Positions 18,407 to 37,642 of a stretch of 41,530 nt of DNA are shown piece after piece. The stretch's first letter is position 1; the number at the start of each line of letters is the position of its first letter. A program made the translations under genes and the position numbers. The notes below the pieces were generated by a model, which saw only the letters and a program-made list of their open reading frames with translations, made no database searches and was not told where the DNA came from. Origin of the DNA: Planctomycetia bacterium (GTDB lineage Bacteria; Planctomycetota; Phycisphaerae; Phycisphaerales; SM1A02); contig SXUJ01000142.1 of assembly GCA_005790565.1 (NCBI GenBank), forward strand, positions 1-41,530, in the 5' to 3' direction.

Positions 18407-21400
18407 ATGTCTTCCTTTCTTCCGAACCCGCGCTCGCTCGCAACGATCTCTCGCTTCTGCCGCGTCTCCATCGCGAACGCTTCGCTTGCGCTGGTCGCCG
18501 CATTTGGTGTGGGCATCGAAGCGGCGAAGGCCGCGCCAACGCCGCGTCCGATTCCCCCTGCGAGCACGAACGGTGGTGGCGTCGATGAACTGGGACTTGG
18601 GCCACGCGTTCGCGCACGGAAAAAGTTGGTCGAAGAGATCGTGCTTCCTCGTCACGGCGTGACCGGCGAGTTACTTCCGCTGACGGGCAAGCTCATCGTG
18701 AAGTTCAACGACGAACTCGGAGCTCGTGCGCCGATCGCGGATGGAAGCGAAGTCGCTTCTCTCACGGGCGCAGACATGCAAGTCGTGACGGAGATCCTCG
18801 CGCAGCACAAGGGCACGGTTCGGCAGTGGATCAATAAGAGTCCTGCCCGTTTGCGAGCCCTTGAGGCACGCGCGGAGGATTACAGCGGTCGCCATCAACC
18901 CGATCTCGCGAGCATTGTGGAGGTGGACAACATTCCGGCTGACCGACTGCTCGACGCGGCTCGCGCATTCCAAGCGCTCGAAATCGTGGAGTGGACGAGT
19001 ATCGACCCGCTCCCCGCGGTTCATCAACAGGGCTGTGATCCGATGAACCCGGTTACCTGCAATGAACCAAACATTGCTTGCCCCGATCCGCGTTTCTTCA
19101 ACTGCAACCCAGATCCCGGTGGGCAGAATCCGATCTACGGATGCGCCGACGCACAATGCTGTAACTTCGTGGGGACGATAGACCCGACCTGTACCGACGA
19201 TGCTTCCGCACGCGGATGGGACTTTCTCTGCGCAGCAATCGCGAACCTCCAGTGCATCGGGCAGATCTACGATCCATCCTCCAATCCGCAGTTGACTGGG
19301 TACCAGCGATACGACGCGTGCTTCACCTCGTATCTGCTGCGCGCTGAAACCCCCGATCCGGCGTGCAACGGGGGCGGCGGTTGGAGTTGCCCTGAGCCTC
19401 AGATTCCGGCGAACCCGCCAGGCTATTTCCCGGGCTCCGCTTCGATCATCGGACCCGCCTGGAGCGCCCCTGGTGTTCCAGCTGATCCGCTCGCATGGCC
19501 ATCGTGGATTATCAATAACGTCCAGCAAGGGCCGTGCTTCGAAGCCCACGGTGGGGCAGGGTGCAGCCAGCCAACGTGCTGCGCGGCGGTTTGCACTCTC
19601 GACCCGACCTGCTGCAACGGGCAGAGTGGCTGGGATGCCTCGTGTGTCACGCTCGCACTTTCCGCGCAGGCATGCGTCGGAAACGCGGTCGCTGGACCAA
19701 CGCCCGATACCTATGTGCCGTTCCCAGCGACGGGCGCACTGCAGGGCGGGGCGCAGTTCTACCTCACGAATCGGGTTGTGCCGGAGCCCGGATTCGCCGA
19801 CCCAGCGAACAACATTTGGGCGGGAATCACGAGTTTCAATGGCCGCGGCTTCGACCTCACAGGTCTGGCGACTTGGCAGCAGCAGTTCTCCGATTACTAC
19901 CAAGGCGGCACTCCTGCCATTCTCTATGGCGAGAGCGTCAAGGTTGCGGTGATTGAGTTTGCTGCCTTTGTGAAGCATGAAGAGTTTGTCCGATCGGGAC
20001 TTCCATCCGATCCCGCCGATCCAGCGCTTTGGGCCAATGTCGAATCGGGCCCCAGCTATGCAACCCCACGCGTCATTCCAGAGGCTGGCCAGACGATCGT
20101 CCTGATCCCGGATAACGAGCCACAACACGGTACTGCCACGCTCGGCGAGATCGTCGCGGGTGAGAACCAGTTCGGCGTGACCGGCATCGCGAAGAATGCG
20201 CAGGGATACTTCTTCCCCATCGTGAGCGCCGAGGAAGGCGGCCGCTCCCAGAACGCACTCACGAGTTGCTGGGAGGTTTTCGGTGCAGGAGATGTCGTCA
20301 ACAACTCATGGGGCTATCCGGGCATCGGCCCGATGGATCGTCTAGAGCCTCTCGCGACTTTGGTTCGCCTCGGTTCCGACCTCGGCATCACGCAGTGTTG
20401 CTCGGCGGGCAACGACGGTATGGCGATCGCTGACGCGCCGTTCGATACCGGCGCGATCATCGTCGGTGCGAGCGGTGCGGGCGGTGAGTATCACCCACCA
20501 GGACAGTGCTGCTTCCAGAGCTACGTTCGCCAGTCATTTAGTAACTACACAAACCCCGATGCCGAGAATGGCGATGTGCACTGTTTCGGCTGGGGCACAG
20601 CGGTTTGCACGACTGGCTATGGCGCGTTGTTCCAAGGCGCCAATTCTCCAACAGGAATTGACGCGAACGAAGACAACATGCTTCGCACGTACACCACGAC
20701 TTTCAACGGAACGAGCTCCGCGGCTCCGACGGTGGCTGGCATGGTGACGATTCTGCAAGGCTGGTCGAAACAACTCTATGGCATGCCGATCACGCCTGAG
20801 CAGATGCGTTCGTCTCTCACAGGAGCACCACAATGCGATGTGAGCCGTTCGATCGAAGCCGAAGGTGCCAACATTGGAGATTTTTGCTGCCAGACGCCCG
20901 ATGGATGCATTCCCGATGATTGCGATTGCTTCTTCAAGGTGATCAACAACTTCCCCGCGCCCATCGCGAGCGCCTACTCGATTCTTTCGAGTGGCTTCTT
21001 CGACGGCGACCAGATGGGGTTTGAGATTCTGACCGGAACGGGAACCCCACCCATCACCAACTTCAAGATCCGCGCACAAGACCTTAACTATAACAAGGTC
21101 TTGTCAACGCGCATGACGCAAGGCGATCGCGTTGAGGGGTTCACCTACCTTGGAACTGGTTGGACAACGGATGTCCGCTGCCGGGCACCCAACACGGTGC
21201 AAGACGCCGGCAATATCTATGACCTCCGCCTCGACATCGTCGCGCGCACGACCCGGACGCCCGTGATGCTACTTGCGTACATGTACGACCATGTCAACCG
21301 TCGCAACAAGTACATTGGGAATCAGGTGCTTGGAACAGCGGACAGCACGATGAACTTCACCGTTCCTGGTTACCTCGGGTACGACAACTATGTCGGCCCG

Positions 21401-21517
21401 GACAACGAGTTTGTGGTGCGCATCTATACGCTCGGTCTTGGCAATGTGAAGCAGTATGCCACTTGGTACGACCTCATCAATCTCTCGATCAATGATCCGC
21501 TGATCCCCGTTCCTTGA
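18407..21517 (+). CDS. Large exported subtilase (S8 family) with two Cys-rich modules
   Basis: A 1036-residue exported protein. Residues 1-42 are a long signal peptide ending AKA. The pro-region (about 80-210) holds LTGKLIVKFNDELGAR and ADRLLDAARAFQALEIVEW, like an I9-type prodomain. Two Cys-rich modules follow (246-283 and 386-423). The peptidase domain spans roughly 500-805: VKVAVIEFAAF with Glu517 where Asp is usual, His574 (HGTATLGEIVAG), the oxyanion region VVNNSWG (Asn632-Asn633) and Ser770 (FNGTSSAAPTVAGM). The C-terminal 200 residues are beta-rich and unknown. A good Shine-Dalgarno AGGAG lies at 18393-18397, 9 bases before the ATG. A terminator follows. It is probably secreted or surface-bound; whether the protease is active is uncertain. 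Confidence 0.9.
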   Translation: MSSFLPNPRSLATISRFCRVSIANASLALVAAFGVGIEAAKAAPTPRPIPPASTNGGGVDELGLGPRVRARKKLVEEIVLPRHGVTGELLPLTGKLIVKFNDELGARAPIADGSEVASLTGADMQVVTEILAQHKGTVRQWINKSPARLRALEARAEDYSGRHQPDLASIVEVDNIPADRLLDAARAFQALEIVEWTSIDPLPAVHQQGCDPMNPVTCNEPNIACPDPRFFNCNPDPGGQNPIYGCADAQCCNFVGTIDPTCTDDASARGWDFLCAAIANLQCIGQIYDPSSNPQLTGYQRYDACFTSYLLRAETPDPACNGGGGWSCPEPQIPANPPGYFPGSASIIGPAWSAPGVPADPLAWPSWIINNVQQGPCFEAHGGAGCSQPTCCAAVCTLDPTCCNGQSGWDASCVTLALSAQACVGNAVAGPTPDTYVPFPATGALQGGAQFYLTNRVVPEPGFADPANNIWAGITSFNGRGFDLTGLATWQQQFSDYYQGGTPAILYGESVKVAVIEFAAFVKHEEFVRSGLPSDPADPALWANVESGPSYATPRVIPEAGQTIVLIPDNEPQHGTATLGEIVAGENQFGVTGIAKNAQGYFFPIVSAEEGGRSQNALTSCWEVFGAGDVVNNSWGYPGIGPMDRLEPLATLVRLGSDLGITQCCSAGNDGMAIADAPFDTGAIIVGASGAGGEYHPPGQCCFQSYVRQSFSNYTNPDAENGDVHCFGWGTAVCTTGYGALFQGANSPTGIDANEDNMLRTYTTTFNGTSSAAPTVAGMVTILQGWSKQLYGMPITPEQMRSSLTGAPQCDVSRSIEAEGANIGDFCCQTPDGCIPDDCDCFFKVINNFPAPIASAYSILSSGFFDGDQMGFEILTGTGTPPITNFKIRAQDLNYNKVLSTRMTQGDRVEGFTYLGTGWTTDVRCRAPNTVQDAGNIYDLRLDIVARTTRTPVMLLAYMYDHVNRRNKYIGNQVLGTADSTMNFTVPGYLGYDNYVGPDNEFVVRIYTLGLGNVKQYATWYDLINLSINDPLIPVP
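19142..19255 (+). repeat. Cys-rich module 1 in the subtilase
   Basis: Encodes residues 246-283. It follows the pattern C-x4-CC-x3-[CG]-x5-C-x8-WD-x2-C-x7-C, starting CADAQCCNFVGTIDPTC. The fourth Cys position is Gly256 here and the second Cys of the second pair is Thr263. Confidence 0.8.
19562..19675 (+). repeat. Cys-rich module 2 in the subtilase
   Basis: Encodes residues 386-423: CSQPTCCAAVCTLDPTCC, then WDASC and a closing Cys423. It has the full set of Cys, unlike module 1, and matches the modules at 35978 and 36737 in the lamin-tail protein. Confidence 0.85.
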
Positions 21518-34669: not shown

Positions 34670-37642
34670 ATGCGACACGCTCTTCACGCTTGTCTTTATG
34701 TGGCGACAGGCCTCGCTTTCGCCAACTCCTCCTTCGCCCAAGTCACGCTCCATGAAGTTCGCGCGGATCAGCCGGGCTCTGATACTGAGGAATACATCGA
34801 ACTGAAGGGGTTGGCCGCCACCTCCCTCAAGGGGTACAGCCTCGTCATCGTGGGTGATGATGATGCGCAACTGCCTCCCGCCCAGAACGGGTCGATCGAA
34901 CAGGTGATTGCGCTTGGCGGCACCATCCCCGCGAGCGGCTACTTCGTCGTCGGAAAGGCAAGCCTCATGCTTGCGACTCCGAATCTCATTGCGCCTCTCG
35001 CGATCGAAAACACAGACAACGTCACGATTTTCCTTGTGCAAGGATTCACAGGCGCAGTCGGTGATGATCTCGATACAAACGATGACGGCACACTCGACGC
35101 ATTCCCGTGGACGAATCTCACCGACAGCATGTCGATGTGGAACGGACTCGCGGACGGTGTGGTCGATGACTTCATCTATTCGCTCAATCGCGTTGGTCCA
35201 GATGCTGGATTTGTCCCCTACGCTGCGTGGAAGTGCGAACTTAGCTCGCAATGGAATGTAGGAACGCAAGACGCCTACGCGCAAATAGATTCGCCTGGCG
35301 GAGCCAATGGTCTCTGCGAACCAGAGCCCGTCGTCATCAACGAAATCCGCATTGATCACCCAGGCACGGACACGGACGAATACTTCGAATTGAAGGGCGC
35401 TCCAGGCTCGTCGCTCGCCGGGCTGACTTACATCGTCATCGGCGACGGCTCGACTGCCGCGACCAAGAACGGCGTGATCGAGTGTGTTGTGCCGCTCGGC
35501 GCCTACACGATTCCTGGCGACGGATTCATTTCGGTGTCGAAGGTCGCGACCTTGGTGTTCGCCGGCAGCGTCGATGTTGGTCCGGTTGCTGCGATCAACT
35601 TCGAGAACAGCGATAATGTCACCCATCTCTTGGTGTCGGGCTTCACGGGCACCCTTCTACAAGACCTCGATACCAACGAGGATGGCGTACTTGACATCAC
35701 GCCATGGACGAGCGTCGTCGACTCCGTCGCACTCGTGAAGCCAAACACGGGCGTTCCAGCAGCTGGTGATGAGTGGTGGTACTCGACGACAACCGTTGGG
35801 CCTGACACGACCTTCGTCGCGAGCCACGCGTATCGATGCTCGCCCGCAGGAACATGGAAGATTGGTCCATTCGATGGGGCTGGCCTCGGTCGCGATTCTG
35901 CCGGCGATGCCAACGACATCTGCACAGCGTGTGGGCCAGGCACCGGCAGTTGCTTCGTCGCCGTTCTTACCCCCGGCTGCGCTGATTCGGATTGCTGCAA
36001 TGCAGTCTGCGTCGTCAACCCAGTCTGCTGCGACACGATGTGGGACGCATCCTGCGTCACCACTGCGCAAACAGCCTGCATCAACGGTGCCCCCGCACCA
36101 GTCTTGCAGATCGCTGAGTTGCGCGTCTCCGATCCAAGCGCGACCGATCTGAATGAGTATGTCGAGCTGAGTGGCGCACCCGGCGCGTCGCTCAATGGCG
36201 TCACGCTGGTGGTGATCGCATCGCAGAGCGCGGGCGTCAATCAAGGAAAGATCGAAGCAACAGTCAGCATGAACGGACTCTCGATTGCGAAGGATGGCCG
36301 CATCCTGATTACCGAGGCCTCGTTCTCTATCGACGCCGTCCCCGATGCGCTTCGCTTCCTCTCATTCAATGACTCTGGCACGAAGAACTACTACCTTGTC
36401 TACAACTTCACCGGAATCGTGGGCGACGACCTCGACACGAATGACGACTGCACCTTCGACACAACGCCTTGGCAGAGCGTCATCGATTCAGTCGCGCTGC
36501 TCGACAATGAAGTGAACTGCACGTACGCGGCCGTGAGCGTTGGTCCGGACGGGACGAATCTCGCGCCGCACTTCTTCCGCTGTGCAGATGGTTCACCGCG
36601 CATGGGTCACTACGATCCGTTTGATGTCACTGGGTACGACACGCCCGGCCTCGCGCCTGGTTCGGTCTGCCCAGCAATCGGTTCGTGCGGTGTGCCCAAC
36701 AAGACGGATTGCCGCGTTGCCGTGGCAACCCCCGGCTGCTCGGATGCGATCTGCTGCGACAGTGTTTGCGCGGGCGACCCGCTCTGCTGCGAGGTTGCGT
36801 GGGATCAGGCGTGCGCTGATCGCGCCAATTGCGCGTGCTATCCAGACGCGCTTCCCGCCGAAGTGCGGATCAACGAGATCCGAACTGATGACCTTGCCCT
36901 TGTCTCTGATCAACAGGAGTATTTCGAATTGGCCGGTGCACCTGGCACGAGCCTTTCGGGTTTCACCTATGTGGTCATCGGTGACGGCGTTGCGGTGCAA
37001 GGCTCGGGCGTGATCGAGTGCTATGTTGACCTTAACTGCACCGAGATTCCTGCAAGCGGCTACTTCGTCGCAGGTACCACGACATTCACCCTTTCCGCCG
37101 CGAACCTCGTCAGCCCCTACATCCTCTTTGAGAACAGTGACAATGTCACGCACATGTTGGTGTACGGATTCACCGGCACCATTGGCATGGACCTCGATGT
37201 TGATGATGACGGCGGACTCGACTTCACCCCCTGGAGCCATCTGGTCGACTCCGTTTCCCTCCTCGAATCGGCTGCGGTTCCTCCAGTGGGAACCGAATGG
37301 GCCTATAGCCTGAACCGTGTAGGCCCTGACACTTCCGGCACCACTCCCTCGGTCCCATTCCAATTGAGTTACTGCTCGACCACCTCCCTGTGGGCGATCG
37401 GTCTGCAAGACCCAGCCGCGGTTGGAACGCTTGACACACCGGGCGCTGTGAGTCTCGCTTGCGACAAGACGGCCAATCCATGCGTCACGGACTTCAACGC
37501 TGACGGCGTCACCGACGCTGCTGACTTGGCGTCGCTCCTGAACGGATGGGATTCTGCCGGCGCAACCGATCTCGACGGCAACGGCACCACCGATGCCGCT
37601 GACCTCGCGACGGTGCTCAACGCGTGGGGCGCCTGTCCGTAA
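34670..37642 (+). CDS. Exported four-repeat lamin-tail-like protein with Cys modules and dockerin-like end
   Basis: This 990-residue protein has a signal peptide (residues 1-24, ending SSFAQ). The body is four related units of about 200 residues, starting near 25, 221, 478 and 731. Each opens with an EIRxDxPGxDxxEYxELxG motif like the lamin-tail (LTD) fold and continues with a DNVTxxLVxGFTG strand pair. Each also carries an EF-hand-like acidic loop, as in DDLDTNDDGTLD (132-143). Cys-rich modules sit after unit 2 (437-470) and unit 3 (690-723). The C-terminus (938-990) is a doubled dockerin-like motif: DFNADGVTDAADL and DLDGNGTTDAADL, ending WGACP. It is probably a surface or cargo protein that binds calcium; no catalytic domain is seen. 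Confidence 0.85.
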   Translation: MRHALHACLYVATGLAFANSSFAQVTLHEVRADQPGSDTEEYIELKGLAATSLKGYSLVIVGDDDAQLPPAQNGSIEQVIALGGTIPASGYFVVGKASLMLATPNLIAPLAIENTDNVTIFLVQGFTGAVGDDLDTNDDGTLDAFPWTNLTDSMSMWNGLADGVVDDFIYSLNRVGPDAGFVPYAAWKCELSSQWNVGTQDAYAQIDSPGGANGLCEPEPVVINEIRIDHPGTDTDEYFELKGAPGSSLAGLTYIVIGDGSTAATKNGVIECVVPLGAYTIPGDGFISVSKVATLVFAGSVDVGPVAAINFENSDNVTHLLVSGFTGTLLQDLDTNEDGVLDITPWTSVVDSVALVKPNTGVPAAGDEWWYSTTTVGPDTTFVASHAYRCSPAGTWKIGPFDGAGLGRDSAGDANDICTACGPGTGSCFVAVLTPGCADSDCCNAVCVVNPVCCDTMWDASCVTTAQTACINGAPAPVLQIAELRVSDPSATDLNEYVELSGAPGASLNGVTLVVIASQSAGVNQGKIEATVSMNGLSIAKDGRILITEASFSIDAVPDALRFLSFNDSGTKNYYLVYNFTGIVGDDLDTNDDCTFDTTPWQSVIDSVALLDNEVNCTYAAVSVGPDGTNLAPHFFRCADGSPRMGHYDPFDVTGYDTPGLAPGSVCPAIGSCGVPNKTDCRVAVATPGCSDAICCDSVCAGDPLCCEVAWDQACADRANCACYPDALPAEVRINEIRTDDLALVSDQQEYFELAGAPGTSLSGFTYVVIGDGVAVQGSGVIECYVDLNCTEIPASGYFVAGTTTFTLSAANLVSPYILFENSDNVTHMLVYGFTGTIGMDLDVDDDGGLDFTPWSHLVDSVSLLESAAVPPVGTEWAYSLNRVGPDTSGTTPSVPFQLSYCSTTSLWAIGLQDPAAVGTLDTPGAVSLACDKTANPCVTDFNADGVTDAADLASLLNGWDSAGATDLDGNGTTDAADLATVLNAWGACP
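35978..36079 (+). repeat. Cys-rich module in the lamin-tail protein (first)
   Basis: Encodes residues 437-470: CADSDCCNAVCVVNPVCC, then WDASC and Cys470. It has the same Cys spacing as the subtilase modules (C-x4-CC-x3-C-x5-CC-x3-WD-x2-C-x7-C). Confidence 0.85.
36737..36838 (+). repeat. Cys-rich module in the lamin-tail protein (second)
   Basis: Encodes residues 690-723: CSDAICCDSVCAGDPLCC, then WDQAC and CAC at the end. The spacing matches the other three modules in the window. Confidence 0.85.
37481..37639 (+). other. Dockerin-like C-terminal domain
   Basis: Encodes residues 938-990. Two calcium-loop motifs of about 13 residues (DFNADGVTDAADL and DLDGNGTTDAADL) are each followed by a short helix (ASLLNGWD and ATVLNAWG). 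This doubled layout is that of type I dockerins. Similar ends are common in secreted proteins of Phycisphaerae. Confidence 0.85.

Follow-up and report, generated by a model that had tools for sequence, protein, structure and literature searches.

A ten-cysteine domain expanded in one family of planctomycetes and shared with some phages

In a genome assembly of an uncultured planctomycete (order Phycisphaerales), two proteins of different layout carry the same short Cys-rich repeat. This raises the question of what the repeat is, where else it occurs and what it does for the proteins which carry it. The window analysed here is the whole stretch of 41,530 nucleotides (contig SXUJ01000142.1), and the genome it belongs to is called the home genome (G000). 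The repeat is a domain family which is expanded in one planctomycete family and is common also to some phages.

Cysteine modules of the window

The first of the two proteins, P1, is a subtilase in which a signal-like N-terminus and an I9-like prosegment (recognised by inspection) are followed by two Cys modules and the S8 domain. The second, P2, has a signal-like N-terminus, four similar units of about 200 aa, two Cys modules and a dockerin-like C-terminus, also assigned by inspection. Judging by their N-termini, both proteins look exported. The features are as follows (cysteines of the module are called C0 to C9).

18407..21517, + strand: P1, subtilase of 1036 aa, open reading frame
19112..19267, + strand: P1 module 1, degenerate, without C5 and C7 (profile 57.8 bits)
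19532..19681, + strand: P1 module 2, with no C0 in the linker (profile 56.1 bits)
20111..20815, + strand: Peptidase_S8 domain of P1, aa 569-803 (Pfam E 1.1e-15)
34670..37642, + strand: P2, 990 aa, open reading frame
35927..36088, + strand: P2 module 1, complete ten-Cys unit, used for AlphaFold2 (profile 61.2 bits)
36683..36844, + strand: P2 module 2, linker Cys present (profile 56.6 bits)
37490..37639, + strand: dockerin-like duplicated EF-hand-like motif at the C-terminus of P2, ending ACP (read from the translation)

The sequence-only reading had reported four copies in these two proteins, and all of them are where it placed them. Its pattern matches four times, at 19142-19255, 19562-19675, 35978-36079 and 36737-36838. 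When all six frames of the window were scanned, the core pattern and a looser one found those four sites only. The core did not occur once in 40,000 shuffles (20,000 per protein, P1 and P2). The degeneracy of the first P1 copy, which lacks C5 and C7, is also seen in the first copies of several related proteases.

Besides S8, P1 has no Pfam or NCBIfam match at E 1. No significant Pfam family was found in P2, the only hit being Per1 at E 0.55, under its cut-off. The units of about 200 aa look lamin-tail-like by inspection and have no Pfam match, and the P2 C-terminus has no dockerin match in Pfam or NCBIfam. Elsewhere in the home genome, other module proteins do end in a match to Dockerin_1 or dockerin_GC.

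A separate observation concerns the P1 active site. Residues 513-527 (window 19943-19987) include VAVIEFAAF, with Glu at the likely place of the catalytic Asp of a subtilase. Among seven aligned homologues the residue at this position is Glu in five and Asp in two. The His (HGT) and Ser (GTS) motifs are retained in P1, which may be an unusual Glu-His-Ser subtilase variant.

The full unit and its conservation

The boundaries first drawn around the module hold for the sites of the four copies and not for their extent: the unit had been cut short, to about two thirds of a domain of approximately 54 residues with ten Cys. It also includes a Cys located nine residues further upstream (C-x3-H) and, in the majority of copies, a C-G in the linker, so that the full consensus reads C-G-x5-C-x3-H-x4-C-x-D-x2-CC-x2-VC-x2-DP-x-CC-x3-WD-x2-C-x7-C. 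An alignment of 20 modules (the four of the window and 16 from a tandem protein of the home genome) gave SCxxxHxxPGCxDxxCCxxVCxxDPxCCxxxWDxxCVxxAxxxC with eight invariant columns, and the same consensus is kept in 576 unique modules. In these, W and C8 reach 100% (rounded), a His is conserved in 67% and two Asp in 73% and 80%. Most of the other non-Cys positions are free to vary, unlike the Cys and W. The pattern used to collect the named loci demands C3-C8, and consensus frequencies from those loci are inflated accordingly. The tenth Cys, that of the C-G motif, is present in 101 modules with linker, rows which were picked for having it. A count that does not depend on this choice finds a Cys 3-14 residues ahead of C1 in 440 of 456 full modules.

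Searches against known families and structures

That the module belongs to no named family had been suggested without any search, and nothing convincing was found in Pfam, NCBIfam, PHROGs or solved structures. No single module out of 101 matched NCBIfam at E 0.1. Three Pfam families matched one of the 101 modules each (best E 0.013-0.059), with the curated cut-off not reached, and two PHROGs families matched one each (best E 0.0076 and 0.074). For the home-genome protein with 17 modules, neither Pfam nor NCBIfam gave a match at E 10. In a sequence-profile search of the PDB, profile A2 found nothing at E 10 and the best match of profile A1 had an E of 0.53 over 15 positions. The best Foldseek match in the PDB had an E of 7.2, which is weak evidence as small domains are hard for Foldseek. 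The fold search in VIA gave no match; that in BFVD gave four weak ones, the best (E 0.83, prob 0.72) to a peptidase of an 'uncultured virus'. No title or abstract among those listed in a search of the open-access literature describes the module. The repeats are almost certainly one real, unnamed domain family.

Predicted fold and cysteine pairing

AlphaFold2 was run with the sequence of P2 module 1 and an alignment of 101 rows. It predicted a confident helical fold (mean pLDDT 91.1, the five models ranging over 84.9-91.1; pTM 0.74), with helices at residues 21-30, 33-36 and 41-51. A full-length model of the 17-module protein was set aside (pLDDT 45, pTM 0.19).

Cysteine losses were counted in 522 unique modules whose flanks were long enough, reduced to 396 or 389 representatives by thinning, which lessens the relatedness among modules and does not remove it. 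In the set of 389, C5 and C7 were both lost nine times and C7 alone once (p=2e-17). C0 is missing in 19 of the 23 modules without C4 (p=1e-13), C9 is missing or shifted in 10 of the 13 without C3 (p=4e-6), and C1 is missing or shifted in all six without C2 (p=1e-5). For C1 and C9 a single spacing was scored, so that shifts are counted among their 'losses'. There were no losses of C6 or C8 among the 389, and three degenerate modules of the 576 were scored without C6. Read in the other direction, C4 is kept in 41 of 60 modules without C0, and C3 in 60 of 70 without C9 at the standard spacing (389 representatives). Ten phage copies, which are outside this count, have C0 in 3/3 cases with C4 and in 2/7 without it (the count leaves out L213, truncated upstream).

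Because Cys tend to disappear in pairs, these data suggest a map of five disulfides: C0-C4, C1-C2, C3-C9, C5-C7 and, by elimination, C6-C8. An antiparallel hairpin would accommodate this map, with C3 lying close to where helix 1 begins and C9 at the end of the last helix. Cysteines which behave as pairs are what a disulfide-rich extracellular module would show, and here they do, with further associations between C0 and C1 (28 modules with both absent, p=1e-10) and between C3 and C4 (7 with both lost, p=1e-6) in the same 389 representatives. The latter two are as strong as some of the accepted pairs and the bond map does not explain them; the C0/C1 association perhaps arises partly because C1 was scored at one spacing. 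Of the two options initially offered, a disulfide-bonded or a metal-binding fold, paired loss favours the former and disfavours the latter. The module is very probably held by disulfides.

The home genome has a DsbB match. The oxidation machinery and the module do not go together in any simple way: no match to DsbB or VKOR was found in 15 of the family's 37 genomes, including one with 111 modules. A correlation with these oxidases was dropped, as there was no clean link to the module.

Distribution among planctomycetes

With its 2.66 Mb in 177 contigs, the home genome contains 33 module copies by profile search. One module gene appears to be split over the ends of contigs C97 and C166, where the end of the C166 reading frame repeats the start of the C97 frame. 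Among 61 relatives scanned, 35 of the 37 genomes of the same family (f1) carry 1-111 copies, and none of the 24 genomes from other families of the order has the module. In a draw of 392 genomes from the whole phylum it was present in 8 of the 10 f1 genomes listed. The 382 others yielded one match only, a stretch of 22 residues with three stops (G360), which was counted spurious. The scoring in this draw covered no more than 17 candidates per genome, and the 363 genomes without a match are not itemised. The proposal that the module is a building block of secreted planctomycete proteins in general is therefore not supported: the profile detects it in one family-rank group, and the 382 other genomes of the phylum yield no convincing case.

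A search of the named genome collection with the DNA pattern returned at least 119 stretches, 116 of these with a profile module (L091, L104 and L182 had none). Thirteen titles say only 'bacterium' and five have non-planctomycete names; two of these five loci (L091, L104) are among those without a module. Locus L171 comes from a MAG labelled Limnohabitans with 28 modules in its genome, which is probably a mislabelled planctomycete. The 'proteobacterium' locus L160, possibly misbinned, lies on a short contig with a single module.

Copies outside planctomycetes

Outside planctomycetes the module was detected, among the matches listed, in phage contigs and in one gammaproteobacterial MAG, 'Wenzhouxiangella' (L078).

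L078:2293-2676: module protein of 127 aa with a signal-like N-terminus, one module and an IPTL-CTERM tail

The tail scores 22.1 bits against TIGR04174, over the cut-off of 20.5. The gene adjoins an M13-like peptidase and an FG-GAP-like protein (both named by inspection). Within the family of this MAG one genome of 43 has the module, namely the MAG itself. A draw of 398 genomes from its phylum, scoring no more than 16 or 17 candidates in each, found that genome and one marginal match (G764, 28 residues, 23 bits). The L078 copy looks like genuine horizontal transfer.

In viral contigs, two stretches matched the full pattern, of which one contains a module, and 17 matched a looser pattern. Of all 18 viral loci, 11 have a profile module. 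The module sequence is identical within two pairs of loci (L214/L226 and L224/L225). The PHROGs assignments were as follows for neighbouring genes in L195, L211, L219, L220, L221 and L225 and for the module protein in L224:

L221:6802-10710: neighbours are a tail sheath and a head maturation protease
L219:10496-12355: neighbour is a baseplate wedge
L220:5187-5837: neighbour is a baseplate wedge
L225:3683-7333: neighbour is a head-tail adaptor
L224:1-3393: module protein without a PHROGs match
L195: neighbour is an exonuclease
L211: the single neighbour tested matches a PHROGs family of unknown function

The L221 module protein itself matches PHROGs families of RCC1-type repeats and a tail protein. 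Phages carry one or two copies near structural genes; by inspection they are T4-like. GC content is 0.33-0.39 in six of the contigs (L211, L219, L220, L221, L224, L225), 0.43 in L213, 0.60 in L226 and 0.68 in L217; that of the window is 0.60. A tblastn search of phage and plasmid records with the 17-module protein of L181 gave no match at E 0.001.

The tandem protein and partner domains

A pattern search of the home genome uncovered a regular train of CC-x3-C on contig C19. Overall, the search pattern is no commoner in this genome than its reversed control. The C19 protein (992 aa) consists of a signal-like N-terminus and 17 tandem modules, and arrays of 17 copies are found in the home genome and six named loci. 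The gene directly upstream in the home genome matches Reprolysin_3, _4, _5 and FG-GAP_2, and its stop codon is overlapped by the start of the 17-module gene (ATGA). A homologue is located upstream on the same strand in six of eight cases (G000, G001, G300, L181, L095, L172) and is not found there in L137 or L187; L148, L166 and L151 were left out of this check as the sequence is too short. The L181 homologue matches FG-GAP_2 only. Ahead of the array, both L137 and L166 have a stretch of lamin-tail-like appearance, and that of L137 is also weakly dockerin-like (E 0.028, under the cut-off).

Of the eight arrays compared, four retain much of the module order. The best match is at the same position for 14 of the 17 home modules in L172, L095 and L181 and for 13 in L148; it is so for 8 in L166, 5 in L137, 1 in L151 and 0 in L187.

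Module proteins are otherwise very different from one another, with 1-19 copies each. The commonest Pfam partners in 60 of them (E up to 0.01) are Dockerin_1 (18), Peptidase_S8 (11) and GBD_T9SS_assoc (9), followed by PPC (5), LTD (3), C-type lectin (3), P-domain (2) and TSP3 (2); other domains have fewer or single matches. The GC-type dockerin (NF041540) is the C-terminal neighbour in 8 of the 60. Apart from S8, peptidase matches are limited to M43 (one) and the reprolysin models (one each), and most of the proteins have none. Keratin_B2 and Dicty_CTDC were each matched in one protein, probably through Cys content. The module is, as first proposed, a building block of exported-looking proteins, being found in subtilases, dockerin-tailed proteins and others.

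In the home genome, dockerin_GC is matched 51 times and the Pfam cohesin model not at all; cohesin matches were found in 9 of the 61 genomes, six of them over the cut-off. In the sister family (f2), the dockerin_GC matches of six genomes range from 52 to at least 81, and none of these genomes has a Cys module. Genome G007, of the same family, has 33 dockerins and no module.

Possible role

Taken as a whole, the best explanation is a disulfide-locked extracellular bead for binding and spacing, a reading which could equally well prove right or wrong. Its functional part, a role in binding or adhesion, is plausible and falls just short of probable. The domain would be a helix hairpin with a Cys-linked loop before it, locked by the five disulfides. 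Cys oxidation would follow export, given that the carrier proteins look exported by inspection. The module could then act as a protease-resistant binding and spacing bead, holding peptidases, dockerin-tailed proteins and other exoproteins on a surface, a matrix or a partner. The 17-bead protein would be the multivalent form, presumably made together with the metalloprotease.

The main rival is a passive spacer, which would stiffen and protect exported proteins and bind nothing. It would suit a module that is present in 1-19 copies across very different proteins and varies freely at most positions other than Cys and W. However, the His and both Asp are conserved outside the Cys set, the 17-bead protein is nearly all modules with their order largely kept in half of the arrays compared, and phages have one or two copies near their structural genes. 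A purely passive role is rather unlikely. An inhibitor-like or prodomain-like module keeping a peptidase latent is improbable: it could explain the S8 domain in 11 of 60 module proteins, the position of the P1 modules between the N-terminal region and the S8 domain, and the metalloprotease gene preceding the 17-bead gene, but in most of the 60 no peptidase is matched.

As ten Cys, plus one His and two Asp that are often present, fall within approximately 54 residues, the module could also be imagined as a Cys/His metal-binding cluster. Yet export favours oxidation, the Cys tend to vanish two at a time and not as a whole site, and the His is replaced in one third of copies. A metal site was rejected as the leading reading because Cys tend to go in pairs, and it is very improbable. 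A genome with 51 dockerin_GC matches and no Pfam cohesin also invites the idea that the 17-module protein substitutes for cohesin, docking the GC-type dockerins of the same cells. This is scarcely credible, as the f2 genomes and G007 are rich in dockerins yet lack the module and some proteins carry both dockerin and module; it was rejected on the sister family, with its dozens of dockerins and no module.

The binding bead could be extended further, to a more speculative and on balance unlikely scheme. The bead would be a shared attachment currency, exchanged horizontally, through which exoproteins of one aquatic planctomycete family and proteins of low-GC tailed phages attach to the same kind of surface or glycan, and the 17-bead protein would be the multivalent form keeping a secreted metalloprotease on the particle. 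What the phages or the bacteria attach to could be approached through the copies near tail and baseplate genes, which offer a handle on it. In one uncultured planctomycete family, probably the SM1A02 / CL500-3 group of lakes and seas, a genome can have up to about a hundred copies of this domain, which is unnamed in the libraries searched, and naming it would let annotators recognise such exoproteins.

Comparison with known systems

EGF, LDLa and TIL are small disulfide-rich animal modules, short, often in tandem and spread over many exported proteins. The present module is similar in being a short, tandem, probably disulfide-locked bead across many exported proteins. It differs in its predicted helical hairpin, its ten Cys with a spacing of their own and the lack of a Pfam or solved-structure match. 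The myxo_disulf_rpt (TIGR02232) and DUF4215 (PF13948) families are likewise Cys-rich repeats of bacterial exoproteins, and each has a match in one of the 60 module proteins, but none of the 101 modules matches either at E 0.1. The GC-type dockerin (NF041540) is a separate domain which is found in the sister family without any module. Cohesin (PF00963) is a beta domain of about 140 residues, whereas the module has no Pfam match to it and its model is helical.

The closest described system is the proposed cellulosome-like 'planctosome' for peptide breakdown in Nemodlikiaceae / CL500-3 (PMC6461901, Andrei et al. 2019), which in the available text comprises lamin-tail, P-domain, TSP3, cohesin, dockerin and a reprolysin-like peptidase. 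Lamin-tail, P-domain, TSP3, dockerin and reprolysin-like matches all occur in or beside module proteins, and the link of a reprolysin-like peptidase to the system has a counterpart in the home-genome gene that immediately precedes the 17-module gene. Cohesin is a difference, with 0 matches in the home genome. As this genome combines 51 dockerin_GC matches with no cohesin, the planctosome model does not carry over simply. The MAG ZH-13MAY13-plancto70 of that study, for which the available text implies Phycisphaerae/Nemodlikiaceae and does not state it outright, carries modules (L097, L111). The string 'cystein' has 0 occurrences in the main text of PMC6461901, and the module is not described in the available text.

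PMC7029141 reports 17 peptidases from the proteome of a population of Phycisphaera type within the SM1A02 group, in keeping with a proteolytic lifestyle; its available text does not mention the module. Tandem Cys-rich secreted peptides in general are treated in PMC6262176, whose available text links tandem copies with avidity.
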